Source: Mesorhizobium sp. M7A.F.Ca.US.008.03.1.1 (lineage in GTDB: Bacteria; Pseudomonadota; Alphaproteobacteria; Rhizobiales; Rhizobiaceae). Taken from it: DNA of 64,000 bases. The stretch's first letter is position 1. Every line of letters starts with the position of its first letter. The translations under genes and the position numbers were made by a program. This document shows positions 30,876 to 34,539 of this stretch, in pieces. The notes beneath the pieces were generated by a model. The model worked only from the letters and a program-made list of their open reading frames with translations. It ran no database searches and was not told the origin of the DNA. The stretch is from positions 62,001 to 126,000 of the forward strand of contig NZ_RZRU01000019.1 in assembly GCF_003997495.1 (NCBI RefSeq), written 5' to 3'.

Positions 30876-31016
30876 ATGAACCCGATCCGCGCTTTCCGTA
30901 ACTGGCGTATGTACACCGAGACCGTCCGCGAACTGAACCGTCTCAACGCACGTCAGCTCAGCGATCTCGGCATCAACCGCGCCGACATCGAGAAGATCGC
31001 CCGCAGGGCTATCTGA
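30876..31016 (+). CDS. DUF1127 (YjiS-like) small protein
   Basis: At 46 residues, MNPIRAFRNWRMYTETVREL then LNRLNARQLSDLGINRADI and a short basic end, this is a textbook DUF1127 domain: an arginine-rich helical protein. Relatives in Agrobacterium and Rhodobacter act in phosphate or sRNA-linked regulation and some bind RNA. GGAGGA five bases before the ATG is a strong ribosome binding site. Two palindromes lie upstream and a hairpin just downstream. Confidence 0.92.
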   Translation: MNPIRAFRNWRMYTETVRELNRLNARQLSDLGINRADIEKIARRAI

Positions 31017-31135: not shown

Positions 31136-31435
31136 GGGGCGGCAACCCCGTGCGGCTCGACAACAATCTGAGGTTGACCGACATCTCGCTCCCAACGCCA
31201 CGCTCGGTGTGTCCGATTCCGGCAGTTCGGCGGAGGCAGTGCCGCCGACCAAGGGTGCCAAGGTCGATCTCGGCATCAAGTTCTGATCGCCACTAGCCAC
31301 CTCAACAAAGTTCGACGCGCTCTTGGCGATCTGATGGTCGCCGGGTGTGCGCAACCTTTTCGGCGATCACCATGTCAGTTTGAATCCGCTACGCTCAACG
31401 GCGCGAGCGCTATCCGATCGCCGCTTCCAAAAACG
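31136..31435. other. Gene-poor stretch between the DUF1127 and TrcR genes
   Basis: A plus-strand frame here ends in PTKGAKVDLGIKF at 31286, a terminal-phenylalanine end like that of outer-membrane barrel proteins. The frame has no credible start and reads through the hairpins, so at most it is a decayed gene end. The remainder shows nothing I can name. Confidence 0.35.
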
Positions 31436-31464
31436 TTGCGAAACGACCCGAGAGCGGTTATACA
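31436..31464 (+). promoter_or_regulatory. Housekeeping-type promoter for the TrcR gene
   Basis: TTGCGA and TATACA are separated by exactly 17 bases and lie about 78 bases before the ATG. This is a good sigma-70 type promoter for this GC-rich context. Confidence 0.6.
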
Positions 31465-31541
31465 GACCGCGAATTTCCCATTTTGGTGGCTCTAAACCAC
31501 CGCCCGCGCGGGAACGCGGGCGAACGAGAAGGATTTGTAAA

Positions 31542-32237
31542 ATGGCCAATACGCTGCTGATGCCCAAGGCGACCGCCGTCTGGCTGGTCGACAATACCGC
31601 ACTTTCCTTCGAGCAGATCGCGCAGTTCTGCGGGCTGCATCCGCTCGAGGTCAAGGCAATCGCCGACGGCGAAGCGGCGCAAGGCATCAAGGGCATGGAC
31701 CCGATCATGACCGGACAGCTCACCCGCGACGAGATCGCGCGCGCCGAGAAGGACCCGAACCAGCGCCTGAAGCTTTCGGACCCCAAGGTGCGGGTGCCCG
31801 AATCCAAGCGCAAGGGTCCGCGCTACACGCCGCTGTCGAAGCGCCAGGACCGGCCGAATGCCATTCTCTGGCTGGTGCGCAACCATCCCGAGCTCAAGGA
31901 CGCGCAGATCTCGCGCCTCGTCGGCACCACCAAGTCGACGATCGAACAGATCCGCGAGCGTAAGCACTGGAACTCAGCCAATCTGCAGCCGATGGACCCG
32001 GTGACGCTGGGCCTTGCCTCGCAGATCGACCTCGACATGGAAGTCAACCGCGCCTCGCGCGGCCGCGAACAGGCGCAGCCGGTCGGCGACACGCTGCTGC
32101 CTGCGGCCCTGACCGAGCGGCTGGTGCCGGCTCCCGAAAAGCCGAAGGACGAGGACGCCGAACTCGACGCCAACGCTGTGTTCGCCAAGCTCTCGGCCCT
32201 GAAGTCGAAGAACACCGACAATGACGATGACGATTGA
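31542..32237 (+). CDS. trcR: DUF1013 cell-cycle regulator (TrcR)
   Basis: The 231-residue protein starts MANTLLMPKATAVWLVDNTA and shows the DUF1013 features: FEQIAQFCGLHPLEVKAIADGE, GIKGMDPIMTGQLTRDEI, PLSKRQDRPNAILWLVRNHP and a second HTH-like part DAQISRLVGTTKSTIEQIRER. In Caulobacter and relatives this family is the cell-cycle transcriptional regulator TrcR, associated with RNA polymerase in Alphaproteobacteria. The C-terminus is acidic (DNDDDD). GAAGGATTTGTAAA precedes the ATG. It has its own promoter and terminator. Confidence 0.9.
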   Translation: MANTLLMPKATAVWLVDNTALSFEQIAQFCGLHPLEVKAIADGEAAQGIKGMDPIMTGQLTRDEIARAEKDPNQRLKLSDPKVRVPESKRKGPRYTPLSKRQDRPNAILWLVRNHPELKDAQISRLVGTTKSTIEQIRERKHWNSANLQPMDPVTLGLASQIDLDMEVNRASRGREQAQPVGDTLLPAALTERLVPAPEKPKDEDAELDANAVFAKLSALKSKNTDNDDDD

Positions 32238-32301: not shown

Positions 32302-33021
32302 TCAGCTGCGCGCCGCGCGATCCGGCGCCATGCCATAGTCCTCGCTGCGCTCCACCGCGCGGTAGAAGTCGGCCAGCTGCTTGCCGCGCTCCGGCTTGAA
32401 GATGCGGCCGGCGATGACCACAGAGGCGATGCGATCGATGCGGAAGGCGCGGAAATCGTCGCGCATCTCGCACCAGGCGACCAGCGTCCACACCTTGCCC
32501 CAGAACCACAGGCCAAGCGGACGGATATCGCGGGCGGTGCCGCGGCCGGCCTCGTCGGAATAGTCGATGGTCAGCACCTGGCGCTTTTCGACCGCGCGCT
32601 CGATCAGGTCGATCGCCTCGCGGGCGGCGTCGCTGACCACCCACATCGGCGTGTGGATCTCGGTGCGCGCGATGCGGTCCTTTTCGGCATCGGGCAGGAC
32701 GGCGCCGATCTTGACCAGCGCCTCGTCGGCAGCACGCGCCATGGCAGCACCGCCAAAGGCGCGCACCATACGGGCGCCGGCAACCAGCGCGACGATCTCG
32801 TCACGCGTGAACATCAGCGGCGGAAGATCGAAACCCTCCCTCATCATGTAGCCAACGCCGGCCTCGCCGTCGATCGGCACCCCGGTCGACTGCAAATCGG
32901 CAATGTCGCGATAGATGGTTCGCTCGGAAACCTCGAGCCACGTGCCGAGCTTCTGGGCGGTGACCAGTCGGCCACCGCGCAGATGCTGCACGATCTGAAA
33001 GAGCCTGTCGGCGCGGCGCAT
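32302..33021 (-). CDS. YafY-type WYL-domain transcriptional regulator
   Basis: This 239-residue regulator has an N-terminal HTH_11 winged helix (MRRADRLFQIVQHLRGG, LEVSERTIYRDIADLQSTGVPI, GEAGVGYMM). Its C-terminal WYL domain is at about 135-235, with LTIDYSDEAG, PLGLWFWGKVWTLVAWCEMRDDFRAFRIDRI. WYL domains bind nucleic acids or small ligands. It lies at the downstream end of a leftward cluster in which two genes carry the same inverted-repeat operator; it is the nearest candidate to bind them. Confidence 0.92.
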   Translation of the reverse strand: MRRADRLFQIVQHLRGGRLVTAQKLGTWLEVSERTIYRDIADLQSTGVPIDGEAGVGYMMREGFDLPPLMFTRDEIVALVAGARMVRAFGGAAMARAADEALVKIGAVLPDAEKDRIARTEIHTPMWVVSDAAREAIDLIERAVEKRQVLTIDYSDEAGRGTARDIRPLGLWFWGKVWTLVAWCEMRDDFRAFRIDRIASVVIAGRIFKPERGKQLADFYRAVERSEDYGMAPDRAARS

Positions 33022-33047
33022 CGTATGGTCCCTCGGCGTTGTCTCTA

Positions 33048-33090
33048 TGCATGTCGCCCAAAACTGGCGTCCACCTTTGGGCAACATGCA
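33048..33090. repeat. Palindromic repeat family B, copy 1
   Basis: TGCATGTCGCCCAAAA pairs with CTTTGGGCAACATGCA around a variable loop. It is adjacent to a second copy 11 bases on, making a double palindrome of about 100 bases. The pair recalls the rhizobial intergenic mosaic elements (RIME), which contain two large palindromes. Confidence 0.7.
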
Positions 33091-33101
33091 TCGTGTTTTC
33101 G

Positions 33102-33147
33102 CGCATGCCGTTATCCCAAGACCGCAGAATACCTTTGGGCGGCATGC
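33102..33147. repeat. Palindromic repeat family B, copy 2
   Basis: CGCATGCCGTTATCCCAAGA and CCTTTGGGCGGCATGCC form the arms. It matches the copy between gap and tkt (43503-43549) more closely than its neighbour. The stop of the downstream MGMT-like gene lies just beyond its right edge. Confidence 0.7.
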
Positions 33148-33148
33148 C

Positions 33149-33556
33149 TCATGGTTTCAGCCCTTCGCGCTTGCGCTGCGCGGCGACGAACTCCGCGCCG
33201 AAGGACAGTTTCTTCGTCGTCGGCGTTTTCGCATCGAGCACGCGCCAGAACGGTGCCACGTCACTCAGCGTCATGCCGCGCTGGAGGTCCTCGTTGGCGG
33301 CTTCGGCAACAGTGCGCAGATGATAGCCTATGGTGACCGGGCATGTCACTTCGGCGCCATGCTCGACGGCAAGTGCTGTACGCAGCGCACGCACATCCAT
33401 CTCGACGCCTTCGGGAATCGAGCGGATGAAATCATCGACCTGGCGCGCTGTCGGCACCAGCATAGACTGGCCTTCGACGACATCGGCCATCGTGCGCGGC
33501 GTCGGCTTCACGCCATTGATGCCTGGTGTGCTCAGTCTGTCGTTCCAGCTCTCCAT
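33149..33556 (-). CDS. MGMT/ATL-like conserved hypothetical protein
   Basis: At 135 residues this includes MLVPTARQVDDFIRSIPEG, VRALRTALAVEHGAEVTCPVTIGYHLRTVAEAANEDL, VAPFWRVLDAK and LSFGAEFVAAQRKREG. The arrangement resembles the DNA-binding part of O6-alkylguanine methyltransferases, seen in small proteins often labelled MGMT-like. The canonical PCHRV active site is missing; TCPVT takes a comparable position. So either an alkyltransferase-like DNA-binding protein or an unrelated hypothetical. The start is preceded by AAAGGACGATCG. An inverted-repeat operator lies 58 bases upstream. Confidence 0.55.
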   Translation of the reverse strand: MESWNDRLSTPGINGVKPTPRTMADVVEGQSMLVPTARQVDDFIRSIPEGVEMDVRALRTALAVEHGAEVTCPVTIGYHLRTVAEAANEDLQRGMTLSDVAPFWRVLDAKTPTTKKLSFGAEFVAAQRKREGLKP

Positions 33557-33613
33557 CGATCGTCCTTTCGACTGCCGATGCACGGGTGTCTGAAGTTCGC
33601 ACCATTGCATGCC

Positions 33614-33639
33614 CCTCCTGACAGCATACTGTCAGGAGG
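33614..33639. promoter_or_regulatory. Inverted-repeat operator D1 upstream of the MGMT-like gene
   Basis: Perfect 11-bp arms CCTCCTGACAG and CTGTCAGGAGG flank CATA. On the minus strand TGACAG and CATGCA lie 17 bases apart, as -35 and -10 would, with the right half-site between them. The TGA stop of the DJ-1 gene falls within the palindrome. An almost identical site lies at 34514-34539. Confidence 0.7.
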
Positions 33640-34222
33640 CTTCAGCATACTCCTTGGCGAACAGCGTTCGCATCTGCGCGAGATCGCTGCCTCTTTCGGG
33701 GTAGAGCGTCTTCAGAAAGGCGAGCGCGAAGGTGCCCGGCGCCGAGCTTGGCGCGGAAACAATTTTGCCGTCGGCCAAGGCATGCGGCACATCCTGATAA
33801 AGGCTGTCGCCGGCATAGCCGGCCTCATGACCATTGATCCAGTCGCGACCATTGCTGGTATGCTTGGCCTTCTCGAACAGGCCGGCGCGGGCTAGCGCCA
33901 GCGTGCCGGCGCAGATACCGCCGACCACGCCGCCGCGCGATGCAATGGCGGCAAGAAGGTTGCCGACATCAGGCGGTGCCTTGCCGGTCCACTGGTCGGA
34001 GCCAATGACGGCAATGGCATCGAGGTCGGCATTCTCGCCGGCGCCTGTCGACCGATCGGGCGTCAGCCGAAAGCCGCTGATCCCGGTCACTGGGTTGCCA
34101 TCAGGCGTCAGCGACACGGCACGGGCGCCGAACCATTCGACCGCCGAGGCCGCTAGCAGCCCATACTCCCAGTCGGCAAAACCTTCGATGAAAAGGAAAC
34201 CGATCGTCTTCTGTTCGGGCAT
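33632..34222 (-). CDS. DJ-1/PfpI family protein
   Basis: This 196-residue glutamine-amidotransferase-like protein begins MPEQKTIGFLFIEGFADWEYG with the conserved glutamate, and has the nucleophile cysteine in VVGGICAGTLALARAGLFE. NGRDWINGHEAGYAGDSLY and IVSAPSSAPGTFALAF complete the fold. Relatives include glyoxalase III, deglycase-like and stress proteins; many are annotated only by fold. It shares a leftward direction with the MGMT-like and WYL genes. Its stop codon lies inside operator D1. Confidence 0.85.
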   Translation of the reverse strand: MPEQKTIGFLFIEGFADWEYGLLAASAVEWFGARAVSLTPDGNPVTGISGFRLTPDRSTGAGENADLDAIAVIGSDQWTGKAPPDVGNLLAAIASRGGVVGGICAGTLALARAGLFEKAKHTSNGRDWINGHEAGYAGDSLYQDVPHALADGKIVSAPSSAPGTFALAFLKTLYPERGSDLAQMRTLFAKEYAEAS

Positions 34223-34303
34223 AAGCTCGCTCCCATCCTCACGCACCGGACCTGTTATCTGGGCGTTGACGCGCCCACATCCAACCGGGTCGAAAAATTG
34301 GCT

Positions 34304-34471
34304 TCAATTGCCGCGAGGGCCACGGTCCGCATACATGTCCGGCCAGCCGATATCCTTGCGAATGTCCGCCGGCAGCGAGTTCATGAACCGCTGGGTGCGG
34401 ATCTCATTGCGTATCGTGCGGATCTTGCCGACATAGTGCTGCATGCCGCGCAGAATGGTGTAACCGTTCAT
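34304..34471 (-). CDS. DUF1127-like small protein
   Basis: A 55-residue product, MNGYTILRGMQHYVGKIRTI, then RTQRFMNSLPADIRKDIGWPD and a short tail. The LPADIRKDIGWPD end matches the DUF1127 consensus, with basic helices ahead. It is controlled by operator D2, which overlaps a promoter-like sequence about 43 bases upstream, so this is probably the first gene of a leftward group. RNA-binding or regulatory roles are known for DUF1127 relatives; none is shown for this one. Confidence 0.75.
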   Translation of the reverse strand: MNGYTILRGMQHYVGKIRTIRNEIRTQRFMNSLPADIRKDIGWPDMYADRGPRGN

Positions 34472-34513
34472 GGCTAGGTCTCCTCTCTCTGTGTAGGGGC
34501 ACTATCGCATACC

Positions 34514-34539
34514 CCTCCTGACAGCAGTCTGTCAGGAGG
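34514..34539. promoter_or_regulatory. Inverted-repeat operator D2 upstream of the DUF1127-like gene
   Basis: Same perfect 11-bp arms as D1, with CAGT as spacer. On the minus strand it reads TGACAG, 17 bases, TATGCG, then ATAGTGC. Sequence beyond the palindrome (GGGG-Y-ATGC-R-AT-R-GTGC) is shared with D1, so operator and core promoter are conserved together. Confidence 0.72.

Follow-up and report, generated by a model that had tools for sequence, protein, structure and literature searches.

Genes and palindromes of the locus

The window, a 64,000-nucleotide stretch of a Mesorhizobium genome, contains a cluster of four minus-strand genes with two palindromic elements, here called operators. Read leftward, the order is operator 2, a gene for a 55-amino-acid DUF1127-like protein (34304–34471), a DJ-1/PfpI family gene (33632–34222, Pfam DJ-1_PfpI 2.2e-15), operator 1, a gene for an MGMT-like protein of 135 residues (33149–33556) and the gene of a 239-residue WYL regulator (32302–33021).

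The operators are perfect palindromes of the form CCTCCTGACAG-N4-CTGTCAGGAGG, placed on the minus strand at 33614–33639 (operator 1) and 34514–34539 (operator 2), and none arose in 100 dinucleotide shuffles. Their core 24-mers (33615–33638 and 34515–34538) end 58 bp before the ATG of the MGMT-like gene (33556) and 43 bp before that of the DUF1127-like gene (34471), respectively. On the minus strand each palindrome is followed by GGGYATGCRATRGT. The DJ-1 gene (open reading frame 33632–34246, ATG at 34222) has a stop that overlaps operator 1. The first-pass annotation had described two near-identical operators, their placement some 43–58 bases before leftward genes, the identity extending beyond the palindrome and the overlap with the DJ-1 stop, and all of this holds.

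The WYL regulator, likewise recognized at the outset as a neighbor of the operators, shows the helix-turn-helix plus WYL make-up in Pfam (HTH_11, 4.9e-16; WYL, 7.5e-18). The WYL match stops 38 residues short of the C-terminus and no later Pfam domain is found, so that, judged by length, a C-terminal WCX domain would hardly fit. The closest relatives of known structure are PafBC (6.9e-10), CapW (4.9e-4) and DriD (0.018). The arginine-containing segment RxFRxxR is present, with FRAFRIDR aligning with RTFRLSR of chain AY in entry 7p5x, which also contains PafC, and with RNFRLDR of PafBC (6sj9).

The gene of the cell-cycle regulator TrcR (31347–32237; PF06242, 2.8e-67) lies tail to tail with the WYL gene, and most of the Mesorhizobium loci retrieved, as well as L078 and L079, show this pairing. 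A true DUF1127 gene (30876–31016; PF06568, 2.8e-14) is located 1.3 kb past the WYL gene and has no palindrome nearby. Between the MGMT-like and WYL genes (33040–33150) there are two TTTGGGC/GCCCAAA-type inverted repeats with GCATGC-like ends, which by eye look like intergenic repeat elements.

The 55-residue protein does not match the PF06568 model, and the name DUF1127-like is kept from the first reading on account of a weak profile match to DUF1127 (hhalign P 0.0032) and synteny. In Agrobacterium and E. coli, PhoR is an interaction partner of DUF1127 proteins (PMC12501420).

For the MGMT-like protein, the earlier identification stands as a remote match. PF01035 is found below the cut-off in three of ten distinct family members scanned (0.083, 0.0012 and 0.022, the last two from close relatives of each other), and hhalign against MGMT gives P 0.0054 with the family alignment (A3); with the Mesorhizobium alignment (A2) P is 0.19, and the window's own protein has no PF01035 match. 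Its PFWR aligns with the catalytic PCHR of MGMT, a motif that has a Cys-less variant in the alkyltransferase-like proteins (ATL). The predicted structure has a mean pLDDT of 46, and a PDB sequence search returned matches solely at E 0.71 and 1.6. Homologues occur in 8 of 289 genomes of the class, this one included; in the 3.3–3.4 kb read around the homologues of the other seven, a search allowing up to four mismatches found no palindrome.

Occurrence of the palindrome and its link to WYL genes

The 6.5-Mb genome contains five exact copies of the 18-base pattern CTCCTGACA-N6-TGTCAGGAG, and none of its reversed control. Two are those of the window, and the others are located 71 bp before the ATG of uvrB, before a VOC gene and beside a fatty acid desaturase gene, the last having no phased −10 element in either direction. 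Scattering over the genome had been set beforehand as the mark of a repetitive element, and this count speaks against it. A role as transcription terminators or RNA hairpins, or an origin as a mobile repeat, to which the overlap of operator 1 with the DJ-1 stop and the position of the uvrB copy between two genes might point, is highly improbable for the palindromes: a T-run follows neither palindrome of the window, exact copies number just five, and copies are found before gene starts, together with a phased −10. The terminator or repeat-element reading was rejected on the missing T-run and the five exact copies.

Two weaker sites were found in the same genome. One has a single mismatch in the 24-mer and a phased TAAAAA, and precedes a gene that we take to be NIF3-like, the protein having no Pfam match. 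This gene is a credible target, because in locus L080 its homologue (53% identity) is divergent from the WYL gene across the palindrome pair found in the WYL-DUF1127 loci described below. The other, with three mismatches and a phased TATTTT, precedes a gene named MFS-like by eye and is only a lead.

Within the genus, the stricter form CTCCTGACAG-N4-CTGTCAGGAG is present in 103 of 146 genomes, and its reversed control in none. Twenty further Mesorhizobium WYL loci, 19 from genomes lacking the strict exact form and one (G130) from a genome with a single copy, all have two sites that deviate by one to three mismatches. In nine of 20 Mesorhizobium loci (L099, L100, L104, L107 and L109–L113), which have no intact MGMT-like match, operator 1 stands directly before the WYL gene, and in L103 the MGMT-like gene is left as fragments. 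The DJ-1/PfpI gene is absent from part of the genus. Across L097–L116 the DJ-1 and MGMT-like genes are variably present, while the operators, the DUF1127-like gene and the WYL gene are kept in all 20 loci.

The association with WYL genes was approached from two sides, by tests that share six loci (L077, L078, L079, L081, L082 and L084) and are not independent. In other families of the order, 129,870 bases surrounding 20 WYL homologues (about 41–67% identity) were searched with up to five mismatches allowed. This gave 25 palindrome-like sites, of which 21, in 15 of the 20 loci, lie upstream, that is, within 550 bp of the WYL gene, and four elsewhere. The upstream zone makes up 9% of the bases (p 7e-19), and the reversed pattern occurs there not at all and once outside it. 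No such site is found upstream of the WYL gene in the remaining five loci (L086, L089, L091, L095 and L096), one of which, L091, has a related palindrome, CACCCTGACA-N5-TGTCAGGGTG, just upstream of that gene.

Conversely, the exact site is present in 34 of 297 genomes of the order, and the 27 outside the genus contain 32 sites, 23 of which adjoin a WYL gene (L082, L084, L233, L234, L236, L230 and L232 included). Next to the other nine the stretch read contains no WYL gene; these sites precede genes for uvrB (L227, L228), PNPOx-type (L200, L206, L208), YciI-type (L205, L209), VOC (L235) and LysE (L231) proteins; Pfam was run for the PNPOx-type genes of L200 and L206 and for the YciI-type gene of L205, which is just below the cut-off. 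Among the 58 genomes of the order covered by both searches, the exact site is present in nine, each of which also has a WYL homologue (Fisher p 0.0019); 22 have a WYL homologue and no exact site, and 27 have neither, so that 22 of the 31 WYL-bearing genomes lack the exact site.

In seven loci from families f39, f19, f11 and, four times, f14 (L081, L082, L083, L084, L233, L234 and L236), a pair of palindromes separates divergent WYL and DUF1127 genes. The palindromes of a pair are 33–34 bp apart, or 44 bp in L083, and the DUF1127 partner reaches the PF06568 cut-off in all seven loci, barely so in L082. On the DUF1127 side, CATAGT is found at offset 8 from the palindrome in L233, L234 and L236 and at offset 7 in L084, and the offset-8 hexamers of L081, L082 and L083 are TACAAG, AACAGT and CATGAT, respectively. 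Five loci (L077–L079, L230 and L232) have a VOC gene (Pfam Glyoxalase for L077) between the site and the WYL gene. The sites thus stay with the WYL gene while its neighbors change from locus to locus.

Another regulator might bind the palindromes, with the WYL gene a mere passenger. The genome has two more WYL genes, one palindrome copy (L007) lies beside an XRE-type gene, and for nine of the 32 exact sites outside the genus the stretch read shows no WYL gene. Such a binder is nonetheless improbable, since the site stays with the WYL gene while other neighbors vary by family, and the two paralogues are without a CTC-armed site, L118 having none and L119 a version with CAACTGACA and TGTCAGTTG. 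From sequence comparison, then, the WYL regulator is the likely binder of both operators, and its earlier nomination as the nearest candidate is supported by the clustering of sites at WYL genes in other families.

The paralogue in L119 is divergent from a LysE-like gene (named by eye) across CAACTGACA-N6-TGTCAGTTG (1044–1067 of that locus). The layout is the same with other outer arms, and a phased TATAGG is found at offset 8 on the LysE-like side only; the arrangement may extend to another WYL clade. In L118 (1057–2710), the third WYL gene is followed by VOC-like and EVE-like reading frames, also named by eye.

Geometry of the predicted promoters

Sites were oriented by the downstream gene and reduced by flank identity from 256 to 94, from which eight uvrB sites and eight distal members of close pairs were removed to give 78. 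Similarity to a −10 element is maximal eight bases after the palindrome in all six groups, one of which, the VOC-WYL group of 12, includes loci with an unchecked gene in a 450-bp gap. The offset-8 score is 5.18 overall, where 2000 shuffles reach 2.65 at most, and 5.00 for the 33 non-Mesorhizobium sites alone (shuffle maximum 3.09). A-11 is present in 27 of these 33 and in 43 of the other 45 sites, and G-14 in 24 and 39, respectively. Among four sites held out from the set, A-11 is found in three, and L235 is off by one. The −35 position (−35 to −30) coincides with the unconserved N6 of the palindrome and has on average 0.63 of six matches to TTGACA.

In the window the predicted −10 elements, both on the minus strand and preceded by TGC (T-15, G-14, C-13 in promoter 1), are AATGGT at 33601–33606 for promoter 1, in front of the MGMT-like and WYL genes, and GATAGT at 34501–34506 for promoter 2. 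From these elements, transcript starts are predicted at about 33594 and 34494, and operator 1 would span −44 to −21 of its promoter.

The first-pass annotation had paired TGACAG in one half-site with a −10-like element 17 bases away, and had read this placement as tight repression. Neither point is borne out. The conserved −10 sits 5 bp further downstream, and TGACA is consequently not a properly spaced −35; across families the −10 is phased at offset 8 with no properly spaced −35. The earlier −10, at offset 3, is second best in three of the six groups and was set aside as weaker than offset 8, although not absent (3.85 versus 5.00 in the 33 non-Mesorhizobium sites). The broader proposal of operators built into promoters and serving a small regulon appears to hold, judging from the phased −10 elements and the five exact copies in the genome.

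A fixed distance from site to −10 and the lack of a properly spaced −35, the hallmarks of DriD- and PafBC-type promoters, characterize the 78 sites and not those of uvrB, where none of 19 distinct sites has the phased −10. The Mesorhizobium uvrB sites lie 71 bp before the ATG (82 bp in G028), and we read CATATT, between palindrome and ATG, as a −10-like element. The LexA box is GTTC-N7-GTTC; exact GTTC-N7-GTTC or GAAC-N7-GAAC is absent near the uvrB site in all eight loci examined. Membership of uvrB in the regulon is plausible from the conservation of the site in two families (f1 and f41).

Proposed activation by the WYL regulator and comparison with known systems

The sequences establish the sites themselves, the phasing of the −10 and the association with WYL genes, and from these we infer a model for binding, activation, operon structure, transcript starts and signal. 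Both palindromes are probably the sites of the adjacent WYL regulator, which would activate the nearby units from promoters without a −35; the genes so controlled would form a small set concerned with stress or DNA repair. In a WYL dimer, each winged helix would contact its own half-site, so that the two flank the −35 position (N6, −35 to −30); the bound dimer would help the housekeeping sigma factor to use extended −10 promoters (G-14, A-11, T-7) in spite of the missing −35. The first unit activated would comprise the DUF1127-like gene and then DJ-1, and the second the MGMT-like gene and then the WYL gene itself, which would create a positive loop. A few distant genes might be activated as well, probably the VOC and NIF3-like genes and perhaps uvrB. 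Single-stranded or damaged nucleic acid may be the signal, as it is for DriD, PafBC and SiwR, and relatives of the regulator respond to single-stranded DNA; the uvrB, DJ-1 and MGMT-like targets hint at nucleic-acid damage or reactive electrophiles.

DriD of Caulobacter crescentus, as described in excerpts of a preprint (PMC12340889), binds sites centered on a poor −35 at a fixed distance from the −10, with G-14 conserved. It resembles the present system in its winged-helix and WYL domains, in a pseudo-palindrome with GAC...GTC half-sites on a poor −35, in the equal distance to the −10 and in G-14 (PMC12340889), and differs in the site itself, ATACGAC-N7-GTCGTAT as opposed to CTCCTGACA-N6-TGTCAGGAG. 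The DriD targets didA, bapE, recJ and dnaG are not among the targets found here.

Mycobacterial PafBC, the closest solved relative of the window's WYL protein, has the promoter consensus tTGTCRgtg-8 nt-TannnT (excerpts of PMC5656591), which resembles cTGTCAGGAG-8 nt-TAnnnT of the present sites, and works by sigma adaptation at a −26 motif (excerpts of PMC11804915). Unlike the regulator described here, with its full palindrome, PafBC is a heterodimer that uses a single −26 motif, in which TGTC is one base closer to the −10. SiwR of Mycobacterium smegmatis (PMC10693628) is a WYL activator of neighboring genes and relies on the −26 region as well as on an imperfect palindrome of 19 bp; the use of a palindrome and a glyoxalase-like gene in some actinobacterial loci are shared features, while SiwR has a WCX domain and controls DinB/YfiT-like genes.

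In length and in the HTH_11 plus WYL make-up, the protein also resembles the short regulators that we take to form the YafY-type group, for which a literature search found no operator of this type.

By analogy with DriD, which has this geometry, PafBC, which has it shifted by one base, and SiwR, which uses a palindrome and the −26 region, activation by the WYL regulator is favored over repression with fair confidence. The fixed phase between palindrome and −10 is an argument for activation and not a proof of it. Should the regulator instead repress, it would bind both operators, cover −44 to −21 of the extended −10 promoters, be released by an inducer and regulate itself negatively. In favor of this reading, both operators overlap the core of the promoter, and a dimer covering −44 to −21 could keep RNA polymerase off an extended −10 promoter. 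Two WYL proteins, BrxR and CapW (the latter among the closest solved relatives), are repressors whose operators lie in their own promoters, and repressors often have perfect palindromes close to a gene that they autoregulate. The regulator also has little room for the WCX domain carried by DriD and PafBC and, like them an activator, SiwR. Nevertheless, repression seems rather unlikely, because steric repression needs no set spacing, whereas the distance to the −10 is identical to the base across families and targets; it presupposes basal activity without any −35, and the uvrB palindrome, 71 bp before the ATG with CATATT in between, occupies the position of an upstream activator.

The type of mechanism, activation by a WYL regulator at a phased site, is already known. 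What appears new is the operator together with its regulon and the connection to DUF1127. A literature search, with most subscription journals outside its coverage, found no prior description of the operator or of a WYL-DUF1127 link. A wider and more speculative proposal, which as a whole is doubtful, is that a short WYL activator without WCX, found widely in Hyphomicrobiales, responds to nucleic-acid damage without the involvement of LexA and uses phased palindromes in place of a −35 to induce DUF1127 as its conserved core target, along with genes for detoxification and repair (uvrB, MGMT-like, DJ-1 and glyoxalase-type). If this were true, DUF1127 proteins would belong to the DNA-damage response.

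With this locus, the large and mostly uncharacterized WYL group acquires a defined DNA site together with a promoter geometry and a regulon that can be tested. The DUF1127 small proteins would be tied to a dedicated regulator, and uvrB would be under a possible second control. If activation is the correct reading, other Alphaproteobacteria would share the activator architecture of Caulobacter DriD and mycobacterial PafBC.
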